This document shows positions 14,137 to 64,000 of a stretch of 64,000 nt of DNA, one piece after another. The position numbers and the translations under genes are program-made. Positions within the stretch are counted from its first letter, which is position 1. Every line of letters begins with the position of its first letter. The DNA is taken from the NCBI GenBank assembly GCA_963924555.1, contig OZ004581.1, forward strand, positions 7,231,338 to 7,295,337, given 5' to 3'. The stretch comes from Crambe crambe (Eukaryota > Porifera > Demospongiae > Poecilosclerida > Crambeidae). The notes under the pieces were generated by a model. That model was not told where the DNA came from and did no database searches. It worked only from the letters and a program-made list of their open reading frames with translations.

Positions 14137-17100
14137 ATGGCGGACAAGGTTGTCCAGGAAGCTCTAGCTGGTGCTCTGACAAAAGTGCTTAATAGCCTCC
14201 AAAATACTCCTTCCAGCAGTGCCAGTGCTCAGTCTAACACTAGTAGTACATTCTGTACTAGAACCCGTGATCGTCAAGGCAATCAGTCTGAGAGCCGGGA
14301 GAGTGACTCACAAGATGAAATGCCTGCTGTCAGGAAAAAAAGGTTTGTTCAATACTGAACCCAATGGTCTGGTTTATATCAGTATTACAGGTATCCTAAC
14401 AGGCCAACCTTGTTTCTTAGTAGTGCTTCTAAGAAAAGAAGGGGCAAGAAGACTAAACCTCAGAGGATTTATACCTATGATCGGGATATTATTTGCCTAC
14501 CAAGGTCCTATTTATCTAAAGATGGATTAGTGAAAATTCCACGTAAAAAGAGTGTGCGTGATTATCTTGCATCAAATAAGCTGATTGGCAAGATACGGCT
14601 CCAGTCAGAAATGAGTGAAGAAGATATAATGAAAGAAATCAGATCTGTGTTCAGACGACCAATGGGCGATACTTCTAATTTTTCCTTTAAGATTTTGCAG
14701 ATGTCTGGTGGTGTAAGCAAAAGTCTTAGTGAGCCTGTTTTGTCGTCATCATTTAAGTGGACAGCTTCTGCTGTAGCTGGTCGAAATTCAAAGGTTCCTA
14801 TATATATATTGGCTCTTGAGGATCTGAATGTAAGATAACAGGTGCATGTAAGAGCTAATAGTAGTGTATACCATGTATTTAATAGATTGCAGGTGAATTA
14901 GCAGATAGTGACGATGACTTTGAAGCTTTTGTGAATGAACATAGCCGGTCAAGTAGTCCTAGTCTACCACCATCTAATCTTCGTGGGACAGCAAATGAAG
15001 GTATTCTGCATGAAGAAAGGATTGTTAAGATTATGGCTAGCTACTATTACTTTGTAGACGTTTCTATAACTGGAGTATCTGTGAAAGAAGAAAAGTCTAG
15101 TCCTAGGAGGAGGTGAGGTTAATAGTTATTATAGTGTGCCATAACCAGTTCACATTCTGCTCGAGAGTTTACAGTCGAGGTAACAGATATTATATTAGCT
15201 ATGCAGTAGGGGCATGTTATATTTCGCTTGTACTAATAGACACCACGGGCATATATATAGTTCTCCTTTGGAAGTGAAAATAGCCTCTATCCATGGGAGT
15301 ACAAATTAACAATAGTAATTATTATTTTGAAATGACATATCATTCATGTATAACTTCAGACTATCTATGAGGACAACTAGATCAGACTACATGAGGTGAA
15401 CAAAGAGCTTGAGACCTCCAAAGTTGCTGCCCTAAATAATAGACTTACTTTTGTTCATGTAGTTCTGTGAATGACACCCTGTGGGAACCAAGTGCCACTT
15501 ATGAGTAGGTTTAATATGAATTGAACATTGGTGGTCCAATTTGTTTAATCATTGTGGTATAGGAACTGATAGAGAGGGTGCATTATTTACTTTGCCATGC
15601 ATGGCAATTTCCATGGTGATGGTGGCCATCTTGGAAGGTAAAATGTATAATCTCTATATATGGGCATTTACCTCCCAAGATGGCTGCTGTAACCATGACA
15701 AAAGTAAATAACACACCCCCTCTATACAGCTATAAATTGGATATTTGGTTATATTTATTATAGTAATTATATCAACCTAATAAGTGATGATAGTGACGGA
15801 GAGCCTATAATCCAGCCAACTGATAGAAGTCCAAGTCCTCCTCCCCATTCACCTCTCAGTCAACTACACGATGTTGAGGCGTATGAATTAAACTATTTTG
15901 TATCCTATAATGACATAATTAAGTTTTCATGATGTTATGTAGGGCTAGTAGATTATGCTACCACTACAATGTTGAGTTGGATTTTTAATTTTTTTTGTTC
16001 AGAGTGGCAAAAGATATTTCGAAACTAATTCAGGATTGCAGGATTCAATACTTGCCTGTGGATAAAGATCAGTATACACGTGTCGTAGTTCGAAGGAAAC
16101 ATCTTTGGGAGGATGCTCTACCACAGCTTATGAAACTCAATGAAAGGAAATATATCCGAGTTACATTTATTGCAGAGCCTGCAGTAGATGAAGGTGGACC
16201 ACTGCGTGAATTTTTTCATTTACTCATATATGAGATTGCCAAGAAAGAAATGCTTTTTATGGGACCCAATGAGAGGCGTGTGCCCCGGCATTGCATCACA
16301 GAGCTGCAAAAAAGGACATACTTTGTTGTAGGGAAAATATTTGCCTTATCGTTGATGCATGGAGGTCCAGCACCTACCTTTTTGGCTCCTTCAATTGTCC
16401 ATTATATCATGTCTGGATGTACTGAAGCTGACGTAGTAGATGTGCCTGACAAACAAATCCAAGAAACTCTGTTTAAGGTATAATACATACTGAGTAGTGC
16501 TGGTGTGTTTGTATGTGTATGTGCTGAGAATTTAACAAATAAAATGGTAATGGCCATCCTGTAGTTACAGACGTACTGGGGGGGACTTGCTCGAATCATC
16601 TGCCAATATAATTATATATATGAGAGAGAGAGACTGGAGTAACTAGTTGGCACATTGGATTTGATTTTGTCTAAACACTATGTATTGACCATTAGTTGAT
16701 TAATTCCATGGAGTAAAATTGTGTACCATATCATTTCTGTATATACCACGAAAATATTACCCCATGAAAATTTACCTCCATATGGTATAGACTTGAATGA
16801 GTCAGAACAGTTATTAATCCTCAGCGCGCATGCGCAAGGGTTATAGTAATCGTTTTTGCTGCCTTGATCTAGGAGCTGGCGCACTTACCGCAGTTCAAAC
16901 AGCTACGAGCACACAGCAGCTGAAAAGTTATTCATTTAAAAAAAATGAAATCCTTCCGTCTTTGAAAAAAAACGTGCATTCCTATAATACTATTACGACT
17001 GCCTATACTCCATATAATGCACACTCCAGACTGCCGACCATTACCTACTTTATCTGAAATGTTCAGGTGACCTGATCTGCATCTGTTTAGTGGTGTAGAG

Positions 17101-18169
17101 CAACAGCATAATTAGCTGGAGTGTGTTCAAACTTTATGTAGCCATTAGCTACCTCAGAGTTCTCCAAGCATGTGGACAGGACTCTGTAGTAGAAACATGC
17201 TAGCTAGCTCAACTGCTTTATAAATGATTGGAAAATACCTCCTGCTCATCAGTTATCTGCTCAATATCTGTAATATTATCAATACTTGCTATAACTAAGC
17301 ATTTTCAGTGTGCGCTGAGGGTTAGCACTTTAGTGCTTTTCATTGGATTTTGCATTGGTTTTTTTTTAAAGTTCTAGGATATTTCTAATGGGTTGTGTAC
17401 TTTTGATTGTAGCTCCAAGATGTAACTACTGTTTATGACATGAGAAAGCTTTTGGATAGTGAAGAATTTGATTTTCGTTATGATATTGGGATTGCAACTC
17501 CAAGCAATATTATTGAACTTAAGGATAGCATGAATATCGTCAAATTATGTTCATCCCACTTCACAATTCATGCTATAAAGTCTGAATTGGACCAACTCTG
17601 TGATGGTTTAAGTACTATGGGTGTTCTTCGGCTTTTGAAGGCAAATAATACTGTATTTCATCCACTTTTCCTTTCCCGCAAGCCAACCTCTCTTACTGCT
17701 GATCAAATGATAAATATGTTTGTGACGAGGTTTTCTCCACAAGGGTCCAATATAAGAGAAAAAGAAGAAGCAGTATCAATGAAATGGATTCAGTATTTAC
17801 AAATGATAGAAGGTAGCTAGCTATAATTAAGCTTTGCCAACACTTTACAAATATTTCACTTTATTTTCAGACAGTGATGGAGAAATAAAGGCCACATCAC
17901 ATGATGGTGAAGAAGTTGATATGACAATAAGTTTTGAGGCTTTACTTTTTTTCATTACTGGAGCACCAAGGGAACCGCCTTTGATGTTTGATCCTATGCC
18001 AACAGTGTGTTTTCATCATTCTACAGATGAAACAAAGTGCAGTCCTTACCCTCGTAGCAATACTTGCTCAAACACGATTTATTTATCTACAATGGATGTA
18101 CCTTTTAGTAAATTTTTATACTACATGACTTCTGGTGTAAGAAGTACTGCTGGCTTTGGATTGATTTAA
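14137..18169 (+). CDS. Transposon-borne HECT-type E3 ubiquitin ligase
   Basis: Exons 14137-14342, 14421-14829, 14886-15112, 15764-15880, 16003-16477, 17413-17812 and 17871-18169 join in frame to about 710 residues. The start is ATGGCGGACAAGG, just after ATGCGCATGCGC (14051-14062), an NRF1-like motif. The N-terminus is Ser-rich and charged. A middle part (YLASNKLIGKIRLQSEMSEE...) is shared, as far as I recall, by G2E3-like proteins of animal transposons. The C-terminal ~350 residues are a HECT domain: VTFIAEPAVDEGGPLREFF, the GKIFALSLMHGG region, and the catalytic Cys in NTCSNTIYLSTMD near the end (STAGFGLI). HECT enzymes take ubiquitin onto that Cys and pass it to a substrate. The substrate is unknown; protection of transposase or of the insertion process is speculation. 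Confidence 0.85.
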
Positions 18170-18267: not shown

Positions 18268-19820
18268 TTAAGAACAATCATGACAGCCAAGTGTGAGGTG
18301 CTGACCAACAATCCTAACTATTTCCCTATAAATATCAGCTCCAAAGCTGTCACTATCACGCATTACATCAACATGGTCTACCTCTTGTTCAAGAAGAGGG
18401 CATGGGAAAAATGAACATCTAGGAACTTGCACATGGTCTCTGGATACTGGTACATTGCATCTTGAAGAGTTTGTGGTTGGTGCAGGTGAGTCGTATTGCT
18501 GTAATGCGCCCTCAATAAAAAGCTGATTAGGAGTACTGTTATGTTCTGTTGACAATGGGTGATTATTCCAAGTTTCTGCAAATGATACCAGAGAATGATC
18601 AACTCTTCTAAGAAAAACTTTATGCAGGCAATATATGTCTACTTCATTCAATACATCAAGGTGTCCATTGTCTTCCAATTCACGGAATGTATCACTGAAC
18701 GAGACACTAACACACCGGTACACGTCCCTCCACATTCTTTCTATTCTTTCATTGTGTGTTGAAGATCCTGTGATAACAGCTGCTTCCGATTCATGTTGTT
18801 CCACCATGTATCTCCAGATATCAACGTTTTCACCACCGAGATCAGTACGGACTTTTTCTGGCAGACCATAACTCTGGACAGCATCAACGAAAAATGAGAG
18901 GTTAGTTAGAGCACGATTATTATCAGCACAATGTAAAAAAACAAGAGTGCGTGAGTATCCATCGATACCACCGTGCACTACTATTCTCCATCGTATCATC
19001 TTATGATTTGTGTCCACATGCCATACACAATTAGGGCCTTCCACATGATACACACGTCTGCGAATAGTAACACTTCTCCTTAAGGCAGTATTTACTGGAT
19101 CCACACGATGTATACTTGCTCTTATTCTAGCTCTTTGCACAATAATTCCAGTATTTACAAGATGGCCAATAATCATCCGTTCACCATGATTAGGGTATAA
19201 CTGTTTTATGGCAACTATTTTATCGTCAAGGTCAGTATCACTGATATCTGAAAAGGTGGCATCACGAGATATACCTTCATTGTCAAGTCTCCTATACAGT
19301 GTAGAACGGCTAATTCCAAGTAGATTTGCAATTTTGGTCCATGAAAACTTCAAGCTCCTATAATACTCAACTTCATCGATGTCAAATTCAACTGTAGGTC
19401 TGCCGACAATTCTATAATATAACAACTCCAATTAGAGCACACTACAAAGCACACACAACAGCAAATTTTTGTTAGTATGAGTCTCATCCACTCCCAGCCC
19501 CCCCCCCCCCCCCCCCCCCCCCCCAATTAAAAAATCACACATTAGGTATATAAATGACTCATCACTATAGTTACTCCATCATACAAGCCAGTGACCCTAC
19601 TGTAGAGATTTACGAGTGTGGAAAAGAGTGTGTGGGTGTGGTCAGGAATGTAGTCATCGAGTTCCTCATACTGTCCTTACGACCACCTGAGACCACCCTG
19701 AAATAAACCTCACCTGGCAGTAGGTAGAGAATCAGCAGAAGCAACTACACCCCGGTCAGCTAAATTCTGCAAGATTTCTGTCACTAGCTGGTCTTCTAGA
19801 TCACTTCCACCCGTAGCCAT
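18268..19820 (-). CDS. DDE integrase-type transposase
   Basis: Exon 1 is 19820-19714 (ATG start, MATGGSDLEDQLVTEIL), exon 2 is 19411-18268; the AG|A junction is in phase and the total is about 416 residues. A helix-turn-helix (WTKIANLLGISRSTLYRRL, about 60-80) precedes an rve-type catalytic core. Catalytic residues: D169 in VWHVDTNHK, D226 in VRTDLGGEN, E260 in HNERIERMW. The core cuts and joins the transposon ends. It converges with the HECT gene, 98 bp stop to stop. The start is set by the first exon, which lies just inside the right terminal repeat. Confidence 0.88.
19499..19524. repeat. Poly-C run in the transposase intron
   Basis: About 25 consecutive C between the two transposase exons. 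Confidence 0.9.
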
Positions 19821-36424: not shown

Positions 36425-39400
36425 TCAGTTTTTCCTTGAATAATAGCAAAAATGAAGGTGGTGATTCTTCTTGCATCCATCGTCGTCAGGGTGTGCTCCT
36501 TCGCAATGGTCTTTATTATTCAGATCATTGTCATCAAACTTTATATAATCTTCAGTGACGGTAGTTCCTTTAACCTTCTGACATTTCCCTCCGTAACGAT
36601 ACAGAACGAACGGTCTATCAGTTGGTAACACAATCTCCTTACGATGTCGCCTATCACTTCGACAGCAGTAATGTATCAGCGTATTCTTATCATATTTTCC
36701 ATCTGGAAGCTCACCCCACCTTTCGTTCACATTTCGTACATCTTCATCATCCCAGTATATCTCGCCTTCCCTGAAATCAGAACTGGGACACCTGTCTCCT
36801 TTACGAGCGATGCAATAAGTTCCTTTCGGCCATTCGAAGACTGAATCATCGTCCTTCACTTTAGTGCAGTAATAGAGCTTGATATTCTTTCCGTAGTCCC
36901 CTCTGATTCGTTGTTGGATTGATTTGGACCAGTTGTTGTTGTTGCCAAAGAGGTCTGCATTGTCTTGCAAGCGGTAACCTTCGCTCCACCCATCCGGGCA
37001 ACTGCTGAGGGGGGAGAGGAGGGCATATTGTCCCCTTGGCCAAGCGATAGGAATGCTCAGGACAGGATCTGTGTGTGTAATGACAAATGTACATAGCTAA
37101 AAATCAGTATTAATTCATGTTGTAATGGATTGGGAAATCCTTAATCATGACCTACTGAGCAGCTGATCATTTTAACAGTTGTTTATTATAAAGCTTGTTC
37201 TTACGTAGGTCCATTTTGTTTCATGGAAATTGGCCTGGAAATGAGGCAAGTGTTTGTTTATTGCTTAACTTCTTTGTAGCTATTATAATTATAACTATAC
37301 ATATAATATACAGGAAAAGAATCCCCCACTTGTGCATGTGCTGCATGCATTATAATTAATGCATGCAGACTCATTATTTCTTGTACGTATGTACCGTTCA
37401 ATTTCCTAGCCTTGACATAAGCTGGATACTCTAAGACTGCTCTTTCAAGGTACGTCCTCTTCTGTTTAATTCTTAATCTCTTAGCTGTCACTGCAATAGA
37501 CCGTTCGGGCAGATTCTTCCAGAACTCTGGCTTCAATGCCTCGCTTATCTCCATGAGGGTCATATGTATAGGAACTGGGGTGGAGTCATTCCCAATTCGA
37601 AAGGTCACCCTTTGTGAGCCTATCGATGTTTCATTCTTGATGTTTGTGTTGAAGTAGTCCAGGCTCAATTCCAGTGATCCTCCATTACCACCAAGTGAAC
37701 CTCCAGCTTTGATACCACCAGAAGCCTATGCATAGTTCAAATAATTATGATACTCACACACTCTTTAGATAATATTTATCATCAATTGCAATTGGGTAAT
37801 TTTCAAAGTAATAATAATGTTCATGTTATTACTATTGCAGCATATCATACTTGAAATTAGTTTCAACATTGTCAAACAAGCCAATCAACCAATAATCCTC
37901 AATCTACGGTAATAGCTATTAAAGATGAGAGGAGTCAGCTCTATTATTAAAGATACTACGTAGTGACTATGAAATCGATTCCTGGATCCAGTCACTTACA
38001 ATGCCTGAATGGTATAGATAATCATTCATTTTGGAGGGACATAGCTAATTCACAAGAAACTCAAAAGGAGAAACTAATCATTAGCCATCTTTAAAATGCT
38101 AAAGCTGTTATGTGATAAACTTTCTATTCACAATCTTCACACTGATCAGTTAGCTACGTAGCTTGCTACAATTATTTCCCCAAAATTTATCATTATCTTG
38201 AAGCTGTATATGTATTAATATTGAGATTGTGACATACTATATTCATAAGAGTCATCCCAAGATCTTAAACCACTTAATTGTAATTTCCCCCGAACTTGAA
38301 GCTGTCATTACAGCGACATACTATTCACGATAGTTGTCCCAAGATGTAATACTCATCTTTAAACCACATTTTCCCCCAAACTTTTATACCTTGAAGCAGT
38401 TATTGTTACCTTATTAATGAGATAGTAACATACTATTCATAAGAGTCATCCCAAGATAATAGCTACATCTTTAAACCAAAATTTTTCCCAGAACTTTTAT
38501 AGCTACACCTTGAAGCTGTTATTATTAAGATAGTGACGTGCTATTCATAAGAGTCATCCCAAGATAATATCTAATAGCTACTCATCTTTAAACCATTAAA
38601 TTTTTCCCAAACTTTTATATACCTTGAAGATGTTATTGTTACCTGACATACTATTCATAAGAGTCGTCCCAAGACCACTAAATTATAATTTCCCCCCAAA
38701 CTTTCATAACTTGAAGCTGTTATTACCTATTACCTTTTTATTGAGGTAGCGATATACATCAGTGTATTTCAAAAGTGACCTATTCACAAAAGTCGACCCA
38801 ACATCTGCTTGAGAAATAAAGTGCTGCAAGAAATTATTATTATTATTATTATAGGCATCAAAAAGCTAGCTGTGATCATATCTTTAAGGGTTTTGCTATG
38901 AATGTTACTGTACATTGATTTTAGTTTATAACTTTTGATTTTAGAACTCTGTGGCTTTATGTAAAAGGCCGGACTTACTGTTCCCCAGTCTTCGATGAAA
39001 TCCATGTATCTATCTTTCACGTATGTTGAGGGCAGCTGCTTCACACTGTCATAAAAGCTGCGAGAAATGTGATGGAATTTACGTCCCCTCACTTTCAGGA
39101 GGTAGCGTACTTGTCCAGTGGTGCAGATCCTCTTTTGGTCCAAAATGACTTTTCTCTGTTTAGCAGTACTTGCCTCGGCTCTGCCAACTGCAGCACTTAA
39201 GCTGAACTGGAAGGTCGAAATCTTTGCTGTAAAATAACAAAGATTTAGACTATTGTAGCTGTTCTACAATGGCGCATGAATAAAATCTGGAACCTCCAAT
39301 AAAGGACACTGATCTTTCAATGAAGAAAATGCCCGTGGGTTCTATCTACTGGGGGGAGGGGGGGAGGGGGGGAGGAGGAGGAGGAGGAGGAAGAAGGAGG

Positions 39401-51942: not shown

Positions 51943-52526
51943 CTATTTGGCAATTCTATGAATGCCATCCCTCTTATACACTATGATGTATCTTGGAAGA
52001 ATAGCATCAGGGTTAAATATAGTGATCTCTTCGTAATTCAGCTCCCCACCAACCTTGCCATAGAAGCTGTCATATCCAGGAGGAAGCCTTGATGATCGGT
52101 TGAAAAGATGACACTTCTTTCCAGGACACACATCACAGAGGAGCATTGCTCGACATCCATGACTGCCTTGTGTATAGTCATGACATTTTGATGAATTGGG
52201 AGCAAGGTAGATACCGTGACCGAATCGTTGAAAATCAATGTTGCTTCCGATTTTCTCCTTATCGAAACCTTTCTGAGCTATGTTACAAATGCTACAACTC
52301 TTGTCTTGACAAAGCCTTTTGTTGCTGAGGATGTCGCACTTTAGCCTTGTTCCATGGTAGAACTGCTCAACATCTTTGCTCCTTAGCGTCTGCTGGTAGG
52401 CTTCCCATCTCCTTTGAAGCTTTCTATTCACGACCTTGAAAACATACTCTATTTCAGGACACAAACTTTTCCTGATGGCCCAAGCTGTTTGGAAATGAGA
52501 GGGTATTTCTCTGTATGGTGCAGATC
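51943..52526 (-). CDS. PARP-type ADP-ribosyltransferase exon (ART-B)
   Basis: An exon of 584 bp opening after CTCGTTATTAG and ending in a stop; about 194 residues. It is a full ART core: YHGTRLKCD carries the NAD-binding His, RFGHGIYLAPNSSKCHDY the Tyr, and LNYEEITIFN the Glu in the usual third position. That H-Y-E set is the one associated with chain-forming enzymes. Extra Cys (CQDKSCSIC) sit between His and Tyr, perhaps a metal site. No upstream exon or start of its own was found. The acceptor is phase 1, the same as the ART-A exon, so WW exon 54933-55052 could splice here instead. It could also be a separate gene with an unseen first exon. Confidence 0.75.
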
Positions 52527-53150: not shown

Positions 53151-56100
53151 TTAGCAATAAGTTATCAAGTATGCAGGGTAGCTTCTGTCATTTTCAAAAA
53201 CAACATAAATAGTTGGTGAATTGACATTATTCACCACTGAGTCAAATCGTAAACCAGATCCATCAGGTCTGAATGGTGGCACTGTTGTACTTGAAGTTCC
53301 TCCAGTGGGAATGCCAACAAGAACGCGAGAAAGATACATGTGCCGATTACCTTGACAGTCTTCACGGGTATAATCGTGAGAGTAGGAGGCATTCTTTGCA
53401 AAGTATGAACCACAACCATATACGCCATGACGAGCAAATCCTACATCAAATCCATTATGAGCAATACTGTTAATACTCGTAGATGATGTGCCATGAAAAA
53501 GAAAGCGTTCATTGACTGTGCCTGTAAGATTCTGTCGTTCTACTAGTGTTTTCTTCTTCATATAAACCTGAAATTTGACTGGCTGCTGAATGATTTCCAC
53601 TTTCAGAACTCTTTTCAGTTTTGGTGCTTTCATAGAAGCCCTAAATTTCTTAACTACCCACACATATTCGTCTTTCCTGTATTTATTTGATATTACTGAG
53701 CGGTGGAGATCAAGTTCATGTCCTGTACTAGAGTCTAGAGGCATTGGGTCCCAATAGTGTGGCTTCATACCTGCATGAGTACAAGAAAGGAATGTTCCCA
53801 GCATATATCAGGCATATTATAGCAAATCCTTGGGATATAACTAATATTAATTACTAGCTGACAACCGAAGAAGTAGTCTCAATGTATAAGCTTCTCAAGG
53901 TGACAGTCCACACATTCAAGCTCACTGGTAGGGAAATGCAAGGGTGAGCACGCATGCTCAGTTTACCCAAGGTCATCACGGAAATAAGCTACAATGTTAG
54001 GACAGACGGACGATATAAATATTATGTTTGTATATGAGGATGAAAGGAGTGTGAGGCTCGCTATAATAATAATTGAGCTATTCATCAAACATAATGCACA
54101 TGCATAAATACACACGAACATCACACCATATTGCGTCCTGAGCACAGGAAAAAGTCAAAGACATCAAAGATTGTCTTCTGAACAATTATGATGGAACCAT
54201 CGTCTCGAAGACAAGCATCTCAAGGTGACAGTCCACCCATTCTAGCTTGCAATAATATCGAGCAATCCACTAATAAAAATATCAAACCATGTCAATCCAC
54301 AATGCCCTGCATTTCTCTAGTAGTTACAGTTGCATATGTATCATTCATGGTCTAAAGCTGTCATATAATTATACAAGAAACTCCAATGAAGCAATGACTG
54401 AAAACTTTCGTGATTTTAATGATATAAGAGGAAGCAATTATGAAGTTTGTTTTAGCTATGAATGTCAAATTGACATTACATGTTACATGTAACATGCATG
54501 TTACATGTACAATGCAATAGCAAGATATTTTCAAAGGACAAAATTTCATGAATGAGGATTATTATCCTAGCCAACAAAGAAGTGCTGAATGTCATACTGA
54601 ACTTTTCTTTTATTTTATTTGCAAAGCAACTCAATTTTGTTCCCAGAAATTAAATTCTCACTACATGATTTCACTTCTTAAGCATAATATCAGGTTGTCC
54701 TAATTATTATCATTATTACTAGGCCATCTTAATTATTATCATTTCCAGTCTGTCCTAATTATAATTACCAGGCCATCTTAATTATTATTATTTTTACCAG
54801 GCTGTCCTAATAATTAATTACTATTATCACTGTCCATTAATACCAGGCTATCTTAATTATTACCAGGCTGTCCTAATTATTATTATTACCAGACTGTCCT
54901 AATCATTAGGCCGTCCTAATTATTATTCTTACCAGGCATAATTGGAGGTGGTTGCCAGTACGTTTTCTTGGTTACATGGTTCACAAAATATAAACTCCCA
55001 TCATGGCCACTACGAACCTTCCAGCCTTCTGGTAGAAGCAGTTGAATGATATCTAAACAAAATTAATAGAAATTTAAATGATGGGTAGTTTTACTGAAAC
55101 TGTTACGTTAATTAGGGATGACCTATGACCCTCCATAGGACTAGCTAATATAAAAAAATGATTTTCTCAGAAAATAATAAGTTATAGCTGCTATGACTAT
55201 CTTTTATGCACATTTTTATCATAAATTATTATGTGATACCTCAATGTCTAATATGACTCTTATCAGAGAGTATAATAATACTCTCTAAGTAGGATTGCCC
55301 CCATTGGACAAAATATTTTCTTTCATAACTCCAGGATACTTCTCTCCTATGGTCAGCAACTCCTAACTTTAAGACAGAACACCTTCAATGTGCTAGGACT
55401 CAAGTATGAAGAGCAGAAGACAAAGCAGTATCATTTTACAGCAATTTCTAAAACCGCTGTTTTCGAATTTCATCTATCATCATCATATTTCAGAAATGGT
55501 TCATTCAAATGCTATAATTTTCATACCACACTTCTCTCAAAATTGACTGCGCTATAATCCTTTATCTTTGTTGCTGAACCGCACACAGCCATCCCTACCT
55601 TTTCTTTTAGCCTTGATTTATGTTTTTTGACTCATAACATCTTGAGATCTCACAGCTTATTACATGACATAGATTTACTACAGAGATTAACAAGAAGGAT
55701 GTGCATGAAATTTATCTTAACTGTTACAGGAATTTTGTTTTATTACATGCATCCATTACATGCACAGTGAATAGCTTAGCTGACTCTGGTCTCTAAGCCA
55801 TGATATCTGAGAAAGATTAAGAGTTTATAAAAGAGGTGAATTTCTTAACTGATCAAGGTTTGAAATTTACCTCTTTCATAAAAGTTAGTAATTACTTCAA
55901 CATGCAAAGAGTACAGAATACACAATAATTGTCAAAATGATCTTATACTGCAACTACATGGTGTGTAACCATGAATATTATCAAAATCAACCATTCATCT
56001 ACCCATGACCACATCTATATCTCACAAGACTATACTTCATCTAAATAAGGGCATTCACTCAGACATACAACAGCCCTTACAAAGTTTGAAGCTAGCTACA

Positions 56101-59100
56101 CAGTAAGATACTGCTATGGCTAAAGAAGTCATCAAAAAACTAGAAGACCAGCTCAATTGTGCCATTTGTCTTGAGACCTATACTGACCCCAAATCACTCC
56201 AGTGCTTCCATGTGTACTGCAGGCAATGTCTTGTGAAACTGGTGGTCCAAGACCAGCAGGGAAAACTCTCCCTGACTTGCCCCACCTGTCGTCAGGCCAC
56301 ACCCATTCCAACCAATGGAGTGGCAGGCTTCCAGTCAGCATTCCACATCAACCGCATGTTGGAAATCCGAGACACCTTCAAGGAAGCTAAAGACCCAGTA
56401 GCCAATCTAGAAAAAGCAGGGGGTGACATGGCACACCCCGTTCCTCCAAGAAAGGACTCTTCTAACTGTTCAGAGCATGCTGAAGAACTGAAGCTCTTCT
56501 GTGAGACATGTGGAGTTTTAATATGCTATCAATGTGCTATTAAAGGAGGTAAGCATCATGACCATGACCATGAACTGATACATAAAGCCTTCGAAAAGTG
56601 TGAGAAAGAACTTACACATTCACTAGAGCCAATGGAGGAAAAATTAGCAGCAGTCAACAAAGCACTGGCACAGTTGGATAAGCATTGTGGGAAGATATTT
56701 GACCAGCAAGCAGCTATTGAAGCAAACATACACGATTCCATCAGTAGACTTATGGAAATCCTTGAGGTTAGGAAGACCAAGCTGATTGGTGAGTTACATC
56801 AAATGACTCAGGGGAAGTTGAAAGGCCTTGCAGTCCAGAGGGACCAGATGGAGATCATTCAGGTCCAGCTGAGCAGCTGTCTTGAGTTTGTGCGGGAGAG
56901 AGTGAAGACAGGTCATCAGGGAGAAGTGCTGAAGATGAAGACAAATCTCATAAAGAAAATAAAGGAACTGATCACAGCTTTTCAACCAAATGTATTGAAG
57001 CCTGATACAGAAGCAAACATGATATTCTCAGTCTTGACAGATGCCACTGTGATGTGTCAGAACTACGGCCAAGTTTGTATACAAGGTTCACCATCCCCAT
57101 CTAGATGTCATGCCAAAGGTAAGGGGTTGAAAGATGCAGTTGTGGGGAAGAAATCTACTGCTGTCGTGTTTGCTGTCAACCATGAAGGAGGACCATGTAC
57201 GAAGCCTCTTAAATCACTGCAGAGTGAACTAGTGTCTGAGATAACAGGTGCCACAGTGAGAGGCAGTGTGGAGAAAAAAGAACCAAACCTGTATGAGATC
57301 AGCTACCGGCCCACCTTGAAAGGGAGGCACCAGCTATGCATCAAAGTCAATGAACAGCACATCAGAGGAAGTCCTTTTTCTGTGGCAGTGAAGTCACCAG
57401 TTATGAAGCTCGGACCTCCAATCCAAATTATTGGTGGAATGCTGGAGCCTTACGGAGTTGCAGTGAATCAGAGAGGAGAGGTGTTGATCACTGAAATGCA
57501 CTGTGTTTCTATCTTTAGTCCCAGTTGTGAGAAGCTCCGATCATTTGGAACACACGGTAATGGTCAGGGACAGTTTAACTACCCTCATGGAGTAGCAGTA
57601 GATGGTGATGGGAACATTCTAGTGGTGGACAGTAAAAATAATCGCATTCAGAAGTTCACTGCAGATAGCCAGTTCCTCACTGCAGTGGGCACTAGAGGTG
57701 ATGGGCCTCTCCAGTTCAACGATCCCTATGGAATAATATTCAATGCTACCTACAATAAAGTGTATGTGCTGGAACGTTTCAACAATCGTGTTCAAGTGCT
57801 GAACTCTGACCTTACCTTCTCAAGCACCTTTGGTAGGGAAGGCAGTGGCAAGAGACAGTTTAGTTATCCACGGGCTATTTCATGTGACAGGACTGGAAAC
57901 GTGTATGTTGCTGATACCAATAACTATCGCATCCAAGTCTTCACAGGTGAGGGGCGCTTCTTGAGGACATTTGGAAGGCGTGGTGAGGGTATGGGGGAAC
58001 TTAAATGGCCAAATGGCATTGCTGTTAACAGGAATGGTGATGTGTATGTCAGCGACACTGGCAATCATCGTATTTCGGTGTTCACCCCTGAGGGTCAGTT
58101 TGTGACCTCACTTGGTCGTGAGGGAAAGGGACCATTAGGAGAGTTTAAACATCCATATGGACTAGCAGTGGATAACAGTGGAGTGGTGTATGTATGTGAT
58201 AGTGGAAATAATAGAATTCAAATCTTTTAGCTTTATCTTGTAGTATTTCAACTAATTGCAACTGTTTCACAATTCTGTTTAGTGGAGTAGTACGTATGTA
58301 GCTAATGTAATAGTTCCAATCACCATTATAATTATAGCTACATATTATTGTAGCTCTATACACTGCACATCTTTTTTTTTGTTACCTCATAATGATTGTG
58401 TTAATTATCTATGGATAAAAATTATTTGAATCTATGACGAAGTACGGTCATATCAACTGCTGCTATAAGAATGTTTACGTCTCTTGGCTCAATAGTCTGA
58501 ATGGTATCTTCAGTTGTCAAATTCGTAGCTTTCACATGTACACCAAATTACCGTGCCCACATGCGCATGAAAGTGCATCCCAATAGTTCACTTCAAGCTA
58601 CTGTACATATGTAGGTGCTGTAAACCTTAATGTTAATAAATTATTGTGCAATTTGGATAAGACTTGAGAAGTTAGAGCAGTCATAATGAACACAAATAAG
58701 ACTTTAGTCCTATTGTACCTGTCACTGAAACTAGTGATTGTCTAGCTACATAACTACAAGTTTCCAGAAGACTTCTTACACTTATTAGCTAAATACTTCT
58801 GCTGGTAAGTCTACAAGTGATTAAACTTTGACCCTGATATTATTTTGAACTATACATGGAAGGTTGATATTCATTTTAACCTAATCTTTGGATTAGCAGG
58901 TTATAGGTGGAGAAACCCACAGGGCAGATAGGGCTATAGCCCTGCTATACCCTACCATTAGACACTCTATTACAAGTGAGCACAAAAATATTAAAAAAAA
59001 AAAATTGATAGGGATGGCCCCGAAATCTAGTTGGATCATGTACTTTGACTGCAGCATCAAGCCCCAATCAAATCCCACCTACTGAAGCTACAATCAGATA

Positions 59101-62100
59101 GCACGTTCTATTGTATCACATCTTACATTTCATATCATCCAGAATCTCTCTGGTTCTTGTTTGTTTAGGATCCGAGGACTGTATGGGAGGTGCCCATTGG
59201 ATCTGTTTAGAGCCGTGATCCACAAAGTACATCCTCCCATTGCTGCACTGACACACCTCCCAATTCATCGGCAAAAATGTTTGAATTTCCTCTGAAAAAT
59301 AATTATCATAAATAAATAATTGAGACCGGATTTGCAATTTTCACTTAGAAAATGAGTTTTGAGATTGGTAATTGAAGTGAATTTCAGAATGCTATCAAGA
59401 TCTAAACAAAGCTAATTTGGTTCGTTTGAAGATTAGGCTTCGTATACATTTTGTATACACTTTAACAGGTTCAAAAAGATCACTAGCTATGAGACTGATT
59501 TAATTTGACATACAGCATGTAGACTTTAAGGTAGGATTTGATTTTGGAATGCCCTGCCTGAAGAAACAGCAGCATAAATTAAGCCATGGCCATAATTCTC
59601 AACATCAATACTGTGTGAGCTTGCTTGCTTGCTTGCTACGTACCTACACATGCTAGGCGTGGGAAGATGATTTTGATTAGGGGGGGCGACAACAATTTCT
59701 CTTACAGTAAGCTATAGCTTTATACGTCTTCGTTGATAATCTGGGGGGGGGGGGGGGGGGGGGGCAAGAGCCCTCAGTTCTTATGCCTATTAGTCTACTA
59801 TTAGTCTATGCAGCAACATCCAATGAAAACACTCACTCAGTAGGTAAGGGATGTCATTAGCCTCACTGGATTCAAATTCAGGGGGTGGGTCATTATAATA
59901 GAGGAACTTGAGTGTAAGTACTTGCTCCTTTTGTGATCCACCTCTAAAAGTAAAAGAGTTCATTCAATGTGCGAGTCCCATGTAATTATTAATAGCTTAA
60001 TAAATTTGCTATTTCTCAGTTTTTTGACCAAATTTCTGTCATGTTGGTTAGACGGTCTCTTTAAGACCAGAGCCTCTACGTAGTTATGATGAGCCAAAGT
60101 TTAAAAAGTGGCCAAAAATGATATGATTTTTCAGAATCTACTTGAAACTGTCACATATTATATAGAATAAGTAGCACCAAGACTATAATTATCATATCTG
60201 GGGGAGGGGGGGATGTAATGATACTCTCATCAATTTTGTTAAAAAGTAAAGAATTAAAGACTTGATACTTAAACCATCAAGCTGCTATCAACAATACCTA
60301 CTTTACACAGTAGATGTGCAACCAATTCATCATGCACAGGTTAATAAGGAAAGTCACTGTTCTTTATGTATAGGTTAGATCACATAGTGAGTGACTGGAG
60401 GTTTACAATAGATACCGAGGCGGAGTTGAGTAGTCACTCACTGGAGTGATCTAACTGACTTAGACAATAGTGTATAGTATTACGACAATCACAGGTCTCC
60501 AGGGTTCTCCCCAGGGGCAAGACTGGCAAGACCATATAATTATCATGAAGAGTGTTCTGAGATGGCTCCTGGTATAAAAGCCAGCCACCAGTAAGGCACA
60601 GTGGCAAGATATAAGGCATAGCTGAAGGCATAGTGGCAAGACAGAAGGCATAGGGGGAAGAACTGAAGGCATAATGAGGCATAGGGGGAAGAACTGAAGG
60701 CATAGGGGCTCTTAGAGGGAAGAACTGAAGGCATAGGGGCTCTTAGGGGGAAAGAACTGAAGGCATAGCGACAAGACATAAGACATAGGGGGGAGAACTG
60801 AAGGCATGGGGGCAAGACATAAGGTATAGGGGGAAGAACTGAAGGCATAGTGGCAAGACATAAGGCATAGGTGGAAGAACTGAAGGCATAGGGGCCAGCT
60901 ATGCCTTAAGATACCTGGGGAGAACCCTGGTCTCTAAGTTGGAACCACAGGTCTCTAAGTTGTAAGTTGGAACCACAGGTCTCTAAGTTGTAAGTTGGAA
61001 CCACAGGTCTCCAAGTTGGAACCATAGCTAAGTGGACACTTTGATACATGACCACTTGCAGGCCTAGCTAGGTACATGATATAGTTAACTCATTATATCA
61101 AAGGGAATTATTATTATTCAAAGTAGGTAGGTGTACCTAGAATGCTTGATCTGGTAATCTGCTGAATATGGATATTGATGTATGTCCACTTTCTTGGCTT
61201 CAATGGGAAGTTGGTTCAGCTTTAAGTACACATGTCCCAACTGCATAAAACAACATAATTAAAAAGTCTATTTGTATCCACTTGGCACCTTGATCATGCT
61301 ATAACTTGATGCATCAGCAGTTGTAACTATGTAAACTCTCCATTGTGCACTATACAAACTAACATCCAAATTAGTTTTAATGGAGTTTTAATAAGAGGTT
61401 ACAACTGCATTAACCAAAGTACAATGTTTTCCACTTCAGTTGTCCATACTCCAAGATCATGGGGAAATGGTTGGTAAAGCATTTCCAGTGATAGTCAATT
61501 AAGTGGACAATTGAAAAGTGTAATGCATCTAAAATCTCACTTTTTTTTCCTAGGTCACTATTTAGTGAAACAATATACAATTGGGATTTGGCCATGATTC
61601 TAGTCATGGTGGATACAGAAATGGAGATGACCAGGAAAGGAGGGGCACAAGCATATAATTACTATAATATTGGCATAAACTTACAGAGCCTCTACTTGAG
61701 TCACGGATATCAAACAGGATGCAATCACTAGGTTTAATCTGTAAATATAATCAATGCAAGTAAAAATATATGTATGCACAAGGCTTAATTTTTTCAAGAA
61801 AGTCATGTACTATAGACTCTAATGCAAGTTAGAGAGCAGAACTTTGTACGTATGTACACCTTTCAAAAGTTAATAATATAAGGCCTCTCCAATTCTGAGA
61901 TATTGCAGAGAATGAGGGGACATCAATTTTCAAATGCTACATATTATTTCCATGATGATGTAGCCCTCTGTAATGTAGCACTCCTACTAGCTAGCTATGT
62001 ATGAACCCCTGGATAAAACTACGTTACTATGTATGAACCCCCTGGATAAAACTACGTTACTATGTATGAACCCCCTGGATAAAACTACGTTACTATGTAT

Positions 62101-63989
62101 GAACCCCCTGGATAAAACTACGTTACTATGTATGAACTCCTGGATAAAACTATGTTGAATAAAAATATGTACATGCTTACATTATCAAACACTAGCTTTT
62201 CATTCCAAACTGGATTCTGAGTCTATAGAGGTGACATCAAGATAAGATAATGAGAACAACAACAACAACACAATGACAACAACAACAATAATAACTAAAA
62301 TATTTTGTTCATTTACACCCACGAGAAATTGCACGAGACTCGCACTTAGAATGGGTAGAATCTGAATGGGGTAATTGTGAATCATGTTGCCAATGGCAGT
62401 CATGCAAGAGTGTGTTCCTTCCCGGTCCCTTAATGCTTTGATGAGGTCAAATCACTATCATAAAGATTGAAGTTCCTTCGTACCCAGTAAATTGGGAAAT
62501 TTTTTTACAGTAATTAATTTCATGTCATGTTGTATTGTACATAGTAATTATTATGTTTGGTTGTTTAAAAAATTAAAAAAAAATTTAGGATACTCTGTGA
62601 TGTATATACCTTGGCCTTTACTTGCGTTCGTGCTTGAGCCACCGTCCGAGAGTTCCTCTTGTGAGTGACCGCCACATAAGAATCACTGCAGATGATCAGA
62701 GGGGTACGTACGTACGTGTCTTAATTTACATAGCAAACCCTCAATGTTGGTACAGTGGAATCCCTAAATGTGGACTCCCTGAAATGCAAAAACCTCTCTA
62801 ATCAGGACACTTTTTCTTGTCCCAACACAATATAAATGTGTATTATTAAAATAGGGACACCTCTCTAATCAGGACACTTCTCGCTGGTCCCAAAGGTGTC
62901 CGCATTTAGAGGTTCCACTGTACTACTTTGGGGACAAGATTATTTCTTGAGTGAGTTGGATTTTATCCTTATTGAAATGCATAGGAAGGTGAATGATGAA
63001 AGAGGTTATGGTAGGAATGAAAATCTATTATTCTCCAACTTGTACATCTACCACGCAGAGTGGAACCTCTGAATAACGGACACACTTGGGAACCTAGCGC
63101 TATTTTGGAGGTTAATTTTAGATTATCCTTTTTAAAGAAGTTTGGAGGTATAAGTGCTAATTTTAGATTGTCCTTCGTTGAGAAGTTAGTGCATATAATT
63201 ATAGATTATCCTTTTTAAAGAAGTTTGGAGGTACGTATAAGTGCTAATTTTAGATAGTCCTTCGTTGAGAAGTTTGTCTTCTTCTGTAATGTCCTTTAGT
63301 GAAGGTTCCTAATGTGATCAAATTTTTACCATGGTTTGTTGGAATCTTTTCTTGATCCTTTTCTCAGTCCTGATGCAGACACTACTCCTATATGAAGACA
63401 TAACTGTGCATGGAGGGGAGAGGGAGAGGAGAGGGGGGAAGGGGTGGGGGAAGGGGAGAGAGGGGGGTGGGGAAAGGAGGGGAGGGGGAGTGAGAGAGGG
63501 AAGTGAGGGGAGAGGGAGAGGAGAGGGGGGAAGGGGTGAGGGGGAGTGGGAGAGGGAAGTGAGGGGAGAGGGAGAGGAGAGGGGGGAAGGGGTGAGGGGG
63601 AGTGGGAGAGGGAAGTGAGGGGAGAGGGAGAGGAGAGGGGGGAAGGGGTGAGGGAAGGGGAGAGAGGAGGGAGGGGAGGGGGAGTGGGAGGGGAGGGAGA
63701 GAGAGGAGAGGGGGAAGGGAAAGGGAGAGGGGAGGAAGGGGAGATCGAAGGAAAGGGGAAGGGGATAAGAGATGAGTCATGGACAAACGAGCTCTCTGTA
63801 AATTAGGAGGGCCTCTTTATAGAGAGAGAGAGAGAGAGAGAGGTCAGTTAATAGAGAGGTGGGATCGGTAATCCGATTAGACAGCTAGCTGTTTCACTGT
63901 TACAGTTAGCTAAAACCCCTTATCAAGTTCCCAGTATCTAGTTATCATGGTTTACTCACTGCAGAGCTTGGAGTACCTTCACTCCTTCT
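53151..63989 (-). CDS. C2-WW-WW-ADP-ribosyltransferase protein (5' partial)
   Basis: Exons in transcript order: 63989-63960 (tentative), 62685-62622, 62222-62181, 61738-61685, 61240-61137, 59943-59837, 59291-59127, 55052-54933, 53770-53151. All junctions are GT-AG and phase-consistent. C2 domain: DSYVAVTHKRNSRTVAQART, TQNPVWNEKLVFDN, CILFDIRD..SLGHVYLKLNQLP, and a final LTLKFLYY, the NEDD4-like layout. WW1: LPMNWEVCQCSNGRMYFVDH..IQWAPP. WW2: LPEGWKVRSGHDGSLYFVNH..TYWQPPP. ART-A: LFHGTSSTSINSIAHNGFDV (His), GVYGCGSYFAKNASYSHDY (Tyr), IYVVFENDRSYPAYLITY, without Glu at the third place, as in mono-ART PARPs. C2 binds membranes and WW binds PPxY partners; here a NEDD4-style targeting part ends in ADP-ribosylation rather than HECT. 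The start lies beyond the window. Confidence 0.82.
54685..54930. repeat. Short tandem repeat of CCAGGCTGTCCTAATTATTATTA
   Basis: About ten irregular copies of a 20-25 bp unit immediately downstream of the WW2 exon. Confidence 0.8.
55100..56115. other. Spacer upstream of TRIM-NHL, no gene seen
   Basis: Intron of the C2-WW-ART gene and 5' flank of the TRIM-NHL gene. 55258-55310 holds a hairpin (AGAGAGTATAATAATACTCTCT) related to the repeat at 24395. Confidence 0.5.
56116..58230 (+). CDS. TRIM-NHL protein (RING, B-box, coiled coil, filamin, NHL)
   Basis: One uninterrupted 704-residue frame. RING C3HC4 at about 15-60 (CAICLETYTDPKSLQCFHVYC, CPTCRQ). A B-box2 lies at about 117-155 (CSEHAEELKLFCETCGVLIC). 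A coiled coil spans about 160-300. A filamin-type Ig domain at about 320-425 ends RGSPFSVAV. Six NHL repeats from 433 to the end include FNYPHGVAVDGDGNILVVDS and FKHPYGLAVDNSGVVYVCDS, forming a β-propeller that binds RNA or protein. The RING predicts E3 ubiquitin ligase activity. The order is that of TRIM2/3/71. The gene is intronless and lies antisense within an intron of the C2-WW-ART gene, so a retrocopy origin is possible. Confidence 0.93.
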   Translation: MAKEVIKKLEDQLNCAICLETYTDPKSLQCFHVYCRQCLVKLVVQDQQGKLSLTCPTCRQATPIPTNGVAGFQSAFHINRMLEIRDTFKEAKDPVANLEKAGGDMAHPVPPRKDSSNCSEHAEELKLFCETCGVLICYQCAIKGGKHHDHDHELIHKAFEKCEKELTHSLEPMEEKLAAVNKALAQLDKHCGKIFDQQAAIEANIHDSISRLMEILEVRKTKLIGELHQMTQGKLKGLAVQRDQMEIIQVQLSSCLEFVRERVKTGHQGEVLKMKTNLIKKIKELITAFQPNVLKPDTEANMIFSVLTDATVMCQNYGQVCIQGSPSPSRCHAKGKGLKDAVVGKKSTAVVFAVNHEGGPCTKPLKSLQSELVSEITGATVRGSVEKKEPNLYEISYRPTLKGRHQLCIKVNEQHIRGSPFSVAVKSPVMKLGPPIQIIGGMLEPYGVAVNQRGEVLITEMHCVSIFSPSCEKLRSFGTHGNGQGQFNYPHGVAVDGDGNILVVDSKNNRIQKFTADSQFLTAVGTRGDGPLQFNDPYGIIFNATYNKVYVLERFNNRVQVLNSDLTFSSTFGREGSGKRQFSYPRAISCDRTGNVYVADTNNYRIQVFTGEGRFLRTFGRRGEGMGELKWPNGIAVNRNGDVYVSDTGNHRISVFTPEGQFVTSLGREGKGPLGEFKHPYGLAVDNSGVVYVCDSGNNRIQIF
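58231..59126. other. Spacer, no gene seen
   Basis: 3' flank of TRIM-NHL and remainder of the host intron. No repeats beyond A/T runs. Confidence 0.5.
59742..59764. repeat. Poly-G run
   Basis: About 22 consecutive G in the intron between the C2 and WW1 exons. Confidence 0.9.
60590..60900. repeat. Minisatellite GAAGGCATAGGGG(CAAGACATAAGGCATA)
   Basis: About 12 irregular units of 20-40 bp built from GAAGAACTGAAGGCATAGG and GGCAAGACATAAGGCATA. 60500 and 60913 carry the same GGGAGAACCCTGG-like words on each side. Confidence 0.85.
62005..62155. repeat. 33-bp tandem repeat, about 4.5 copies
   Basis: Near-identical units of ACTATGTATGAACCCC plus CTGGATAAAACTACGTT. The high identity suggests recent expansion. 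Confidence 0.95.
62753..62920. mobile_element. Best-preserved CAGTGGAA-family miniature element
   Basis: TA|CAGTGGAATCCCTAAATG ... CATTTAGAGGTTCCACTG|TA with inner repeats CCTCTCTAATCAGGACAC. Intron between C2 exons. Confidence 0.88.
63059..63313. repeat. Degenerate CAGTGGAA-family repeat with internal tandem copy
   Basis: Starts GTGGAACCTCTGAATAACGGAC and ends GTCCTTTAGTGAAGGTTCC. A segment of about 90 bp (TTTAAAGAAGTTTGGAGGTA...) occurs twice. Confidence 0.5.
63411..63842. repeat. Homopurine tract and (GA)n
   Basis: About 350 bp of G/A only, with a 60-64 bp unit (GGGGAGAGGGAGAGGAGAGG..AAGGGGTGAGGGGGAGTGGG) repeated 3-4 times, then (AG)n at 63820-63842. It lies in the intron right after the first C2 exon. 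Confidence 0.9.
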
Positions 63990-64000
63990 CTGAAATATGT

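Follow-up and report, generated by a model that had tools for sequence, protein, structure and literature searches.

A predicted sponge gene joining NEDD4-like C2 and WW domains to a PARP-type ADP-ribosyltransferase

At the right end of the window, i.e., the whole 64,000-nucleotide stretch of Crambe crambe DNA analyzed here (C1:7231338-7295337, in a genome of 143 Mb), the minus strand carries a gene in which a C2 domain and two WW domains are followed by a PARP-type ADP-ribosyltransferase (ART). This order, first proposed in a preliminary description, is present with canonical splice sites, matching phases, and Pfam families above cut-off. Judging from the sequence, it is probable that this is a chimeric gene, encoding an enzyme for mono-ADP-ribosylation whose targeting half is that of a NEDD4 ubiquitin ligase.

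Gene model and domain identity

The predicted C2-WW-WW-ART protein comprises 508 aa, in an 11-exon model with an open 5' end and a TAA stop closing the ART. An AG precedes every exon and a GT follows all except the last, the frame is kept across all ten junctions, and no exon contains a frame break. The consistent phases of the preliminary description were thus upheld, but its count of nine exons was too low: ten lie within the window, with further ones upstream of the window edge. The features are as follows (window coordinates; NEDD4 is the genome's own copy, at locus L034):

64582-64668, beyond the window, minus strand: exon N1; AG/GT sites, frame kept
63960-64037 (63960..64000 in the window), minus strand: exon N2, a linker ahead of C2; AG/GT sites, phase 0 in and out
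63330..63403, minus strand: C2 exon 1, first strand, LCLHIGVVSASGLRK...; entry and exit phases as in NEDD4 (L034:336-400), 9 nt longer than it
62610..62685, minus strand: C2 exon 2, CDSYVAVTHKRN...; phases as in NEDD4 (L034:1111-1183), 3 nt longer than it
62181..62222, minus strand: C2 exon 3, TQNPVWNEKLVFDN, 42 nt; NEDD4 counterpart 42 nt, phases equal
61685..61738, minus strand: C2 exon 4, IKPSDCILFDIRDSSRGS, 54 nt; NEDD4 counterpart 54 nt, phases equal
61137..61240, minus strand: C2 exon 5, LGHVYLKLNQLPIEAKK...; lacks 15 nt (TRDNF) found at the start of its NEDD4 counterpart
59837..59943, minus strand: C2 exon 6, GGSQKEQVLTLKFLYYNDPP..., phase 1 exit; phases as in NEDD4 (L034:4717-4820, its end set by eye)
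59127..59291, minus strand: WW domain 1, phase 1-1 exon; 22.8 bits alone, one of two WW stretches in the joined protein
54933..55052, minus strand: WW domain 2, phase 1-1 exon; 36.1 bits alone
53151..53770, minus strand: PARP-type ART, last exon with stop and H-Y-I triad; phase 1 entry, as in three neighbors
51943..52526, minus strand: second ART exon, of a different type; phase-1 acceptor, candidate alternative last exon

Extension beyond the 5' end, as had been proposed, yielded exon N1 and six small candidate exons at 65223-65929 (window coordinates, past the window end), all AG/GT-bounded and multiples of three. Four of these six (minus strand, locus L009) are alike, in phase, and of the TQETDYGEITPRIIITGGQ type, and the array ahead of C2 looks like a set of duplicated exons. 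Neither a start codon nor the 5' end was found in the model, including these upstream candidates. A search for a processed retrocopy, which would be proof of splicing, used 978 bases from the joined coding sequence and gave 11 matches, all of them at the locus itself. Local repeats are present in the introns of the C2 part (60593-60898, 61995-62156, and 63113-63277).

The suggested domain-profile check of the assembled protein bore out all three domains, with C2 (46.6 bits, E 4.4e-12), WW (two copies, 50.1 bits in all, E 2.8e-13), and PARP (70.4 bits, E 1.9e-19) each scoring above the curated Pfam cut-off. Beyond these, the 508 aa model had no Pfam family match at E up to 1; this includes WWE, considered because it might be confused with WW. 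Taken alone, WW1 falls under the WW cut-off (22.8 vs. 26.9 bits) and WW2 passes it (36.1 bits). None of the at least 68 matches of a genome-wide C2 profile search lay at this locus, as may be expected for C2 exons of such short length.

Two controls speak against chance assembly of the C2 domain. With the C2 of the genome's own NEDD4 as query, the 508 aa model scored 107.2 bits, compared to a maximum of 47.3 bits among 20,000 random six-exon chains with consistent phases drawn from 59000-64700, a pool that may include the true exons. Similarly, when kept in genomic order, the six C2 exons reached 47.8 bits against the Pfam C2 profile, compared to 21.5 and 16.1 bits for two scrambled orders.

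The C2 and WW exons and the genome's own NEDD4

The C2 region looks like a duplicate of a NEDD4-type C2. The genome's own NEDD4 lies on another contig, C19, where C2 and WW are accompanied by downstream HECT matches at C19:2132991-2135138. Across the two C2 domains, 72 of 132 aligned residues are identical, and identities by codon position (66, 71, and 38%) are those expected from constrained coding sequence. With the exons of the focal gene fixed before the NEDD4 locus was read, and the NEDD4 exon ends then chosen by eye, both genes have entry phases of 0, 2, 0, 0, 0, and 2 for the C2 exons and 1 for the first WW exon, while the C2 exons are equal in length in two cases (42 and 54 nt) and differ by +9, +3, −15, and +3 nt in the others. 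A PDB search with the C2-WW part returned NEDD4L as best match (1.2e-22), along with NEDD4 C2 chains (best 3.1e-6). Compared to NEDD4 and NEDD4L (C2-WW-HECT), the focal gene thus shares a NEDD4-type C2, the exon-entry phases of the genome's own NEDD4, and tandem WW domains after C2, but it has two WW domains, a C2 exon 5 shorter by 15 nt, and a PARP-type ART instead of HECT at its end. These missing 15 nt (TRDNF) fall in what we take to be calcium-binding loop 3 of the C2 domain, so membrane recruitment by this C2 may be independent of calcium.

For the two WW exons (both phase 1-1), no donor could be traced. The first WW exon of the genome's own NEDD4 is organized differently, at 329 nt vs. 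165 nt in the focal gene, and the best PDB match for the WW pair is NEDD4L. Both WW domains would bind PPxY. A WW-like scrap was also seen at 140710-140778 (E 0.004). The intron between WW1 and WW2 is the gene's largest (4 kb) and holds a nested gene on the opposite strand, an intronless TRIM-like (TRIM-NHL-type) gene at 56107-58230 (+) with RING, B-box, filamin, and NHL repeats.

Given a NEDD4-like C2 and WW domains, the gene could be read as an ordinary NEDD4-family ligase with overlooked HECT exons. This reading is hardly tenable and already largely refuted, since the frame ends at the stop in the ART exon, contig C19 already provides a NEDD4 gene in which C2 and WW are accompanied by HECT matches further downstream, and no HECT match was detected in the joined protein or in the window (0 of 120 genome-wide). 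The preliminary claim of an ART in place of HECT is accordingly confirmed.

The ART exon, its neighbors, and a second candidate ending

The ART exon has a phase-1 acceptor directly ahead of a W-D-P-(M/I)-P motif, and three similarly oriented ART exons farther along the contig (C1:7311378, 7345216, and 7385157) have theirs at the same place and in the same phase, as judged by eye. Directly before all three lies a macrodomain (57.4, 65.7, and 74.1 bits), with WWE matches of 18.9, 20.7, and 22.6 bits (cut-off 21.1), and two of the three genes also have PARP14 KH matches, weak and all below cut-offs; on this basis, we refer to them as PARP14-like. The shared entry suggests that the focal ART exon is normally spliced rather than self-starting, and that it represents a known kind of last exon, here joined to WW2. 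In an alignment of eight ARTs, the focal ART is 49-51% identical to these three neighbors and 34-44% identical to the four other proteins, such that its nearest relatives among those compared are the genes on its own contig. These neighbors share strand and exon entry with the focal gene but carry a macrodomain and WWE-like region before the ART, where the focal gene carries WW domains. An apparent trace of tandem duplication, between 67155-67370 and introns of two neighboring genes, was dropped as a dispersed repeat, because a 501-base query over this interval matched in all 40 scored of 616 genome-wide candidates.

Alternatively, the locus could comprise two genes, one for a C2-WW adaptor and a small one for the ART, initiated at an ATG two bases inside the ART exon. 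The exon does start with GTATG, providing an in-frame ATG with the PARP match entirely downstream of it. However, a phase-1 acceptor opens this exon just as it does in the three neighbors after their macrodomain-WWE exon, the neighbors' codons at this place are not ATG, and WW2 would then need another ending, for which only the second ART exon was found. From these sequence features, an ART exon that starts its own gene, the outcome which the preliminary description had set against its own reading, is unlikely, and we assign the two-gene arrangement a very low probability.

Comparison to solved structures places the focal ART closest to PARP12 (9.1e-31) and PARP14 (2e-30), and its predicted structure matches PARP14, PARP15, PARP12, and PARP10, with TM-scores by query of 0.63-0.71 over the 50 matches listed, for a model of moderate confidence (mean pLDDT 70.9, with values below 50 for residues 110-120 close to the active site). 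Residues H395, Y425, and I490 of the 508 aa model, which we take to occupy the triad columns based on comparison with PARP1, are among the 31 invariant columns of the eight-ART alignment; in a 23-row alignment, the I490 column is conserved at the level of at least 90% only. The three residues align with the same residues in PARP12- and PARP11-type proteins. An H-Y-(I/L) triad is characteristic of mono-ADP-ribosyltransferases, and by the usual rule an isoleucine at the third position excludes poly-ADP-ribose synthesis. The triad therefore predicts an enzyme that would be mono- rather than poly-ADP-ribosylating. The same isoleucine rule, together with the inactivity of some clade 3 members such as PARP13, leaves room for a catalytically dead scaffold in which the ART acts as a binding module, or for a decaying gene. 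We consider this unlikely, as the triad aligns with the PARP12- and PARP11-type residues and the model exons are without frame break. In PARP14, a leucine at the third triad position is linked to mono-ADP-ribosylation in the available excerpt of PMC13224862.

The second ART exon (51943-52526) lies 624 bases beyond the first. Its best match among solved structures is tankyrase-1 (1.8e-7). Genome-wide, it matches 14 other sites, not all of them in full, and three of these sites are the PARP14-like ART exons. It carries a Cys-containing insert and belongs to a multi-copy family, in which the second-type ART copies at loci L037 and L038 are preceded by Cys-rich, zinc-binding-looking repeat ORFs. 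Joined to this exon, WW2 reads through to a stop (phase 1 to phase 1), hence the gene may have two endings. Under this alternative, a single C2-WW gene would use either 53151-53770 (PARP14-like) or 51943-52526 as last exon, providing two enzymes with one targeting half. The arrangement is consistent with the phase-1 entry of both ART exons and phase-1 exit of WW2, and with the surroundings of other copies: among seven of these inspected by eye, Cys-rich repeat ORFs were seen upstream at L037 and L038 and a different Cys-rich ORF at L042, whereas near the window's copy none of the seven strings given by a pattern scan resembled these ORFs. On the other hand, the linkage to WW2 is one of phase, for which one junction in three would fit by chance, and the second ART could have its own short 5' exon in the 624-base gap or be preceded by unrecognized exons. 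Alternative endings are thus possible, although we hold them doubtful.

Architecture, setting, and proposed role

The C2-WW-ART architecture looks new on the limited evidence of our searches, while each single domain, and ARTs with varied partners, are already known. Elsewhere in the genome, comparison of match lists placed none of the at least 33 other WW matches within 60 kb of the at least 42 PARP matches. From 6880 candidates, a whole-protein search retained 47 proteins, which covered 25-50% of the query (of which the ART represents ~40%). The ten best matches were PARP12-type proteins of birds, including one that bears the name CCCH-type antiviral protein 1. C2 or WW was listed in none of these 47 proteins and no orthologue was found in another species by this search, which could miss a distant one. 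Residues 50-310 as query gave no match (428 candidates), nor did residues 255-508 (623 candidates), even though the latter span the otherwise readily matched ART, so that neither null result carries weight. No C2-WW-ART protein appeared in any title or abstract start of the literature searched, within certain licences. The novelty proposed in the preliminary description is supported only as far as the whole-protein and literature searches reach.

Relative to PARP14 and PARP12 (clade 3), the focal gene shares the catalytic domain, the H-Y-I triad, and the exon entry of the local PARP14-like genes, but its 508 aa model includes C2 and WW domains and lacks a macrodomain, KH, WWE, RRM, or CCCH zinc finger. 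According to the available excerpt of Perina et al. 2014 (PMC4245714), the sponge Amphimedon has six PARP14-like proteins; all of them carry one or more macrodomains, WWE or RRM is present in some, and a single one has a radial-spoke domain. The same excerpt reports a U-box in clade 3 proteins of Dictyostelium. Neither "WW domain" nor "C2 domain" appears as a term in the excerpts of PMC4245714 and PMC13224862.

Between the PARP14-like genes lie two long ORFs, each combining NACHT with leucine-rich repeats:

L012:4769-9997 (C1:7326103-7331886), minus strand: NACHT-LRR ORF, from domain scan
L015:4994-9997 (C1:7356328-7362060), minus strand: NACHT-LRR ORF, from domain scan

Within the window itself, we also observed an Apextrin C-terminal (ApeC) domain at 36428-37096 (−; 8.9e-53), and an ORF with an integrase core (rva_4) at 18271-19431 (−; 1.4e-72), which is probably a mobile element. 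ORFs at 15989-17820 (+) appeared HECT-like by eye; the pieces at 15989-16480 and 17413-17817 matched no Pfam family at E up to 0.01.

For the chimeric gene that we favor, the probable origin involves duplication of C2 exons from a NEDD4-type gene, followed by two WW exons, with a PARP14-like last exon in HECT's place. The analysis demonstrates the exon structure, the identity of the domains, the phases in common, and the conservation of the triad residues, and from these we infer a transcript, enzyme activity, PPxY binding, membrane recruitment, and targets for this gene. The C2 would help hold the protein at membranes, the WW domains would recognize PPxY motifs in receptors and in adaptors for membrane cargo, and the ART would add single ADP-ribose units onto bound partners or neighbors held with them, such that proteins normally offered to NEDD4 for ubiquitin may receive ADP-ribose instead. 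ADP-ribosylation directed to PPxY-bearing membrane partners, as initially proposed, would thus be a reasonable expectation from the domains, and since the targeting half is that of NEDD4, the two proteins should compete for partners.

The genomic setting, with PARP14-like genes, two NACHT-LRR genes, and a nested TRIM-NHL-type gene, fits an immune role as a hypothesis. Viral proteins also use a PPxY motif to bind NEDD4-like ligases, according to the available excerpt of PMC2958808. A more speculative scenario, which we regard as improbable, is a swap of writers in innate immunity, in which the NEDD4 front half would have been copied to meet PPxY recruiters, including viral late-domain motifs, with ADP-ribose substituted for ubiquitin and two last exons providing two ART activities.

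If expressed and active, the chimeric gene would represent a natural experiment, evolution having exchanged the enzyme of a ubiquitin ligase while keeping its targeting half. In it, NEDD4-style recruitment through PPxY would be coupled to ADP-ribosylation, with two marks competing at the same cargo, and it would exemplify the reuse of an ART last exon via a phase-1 intron.
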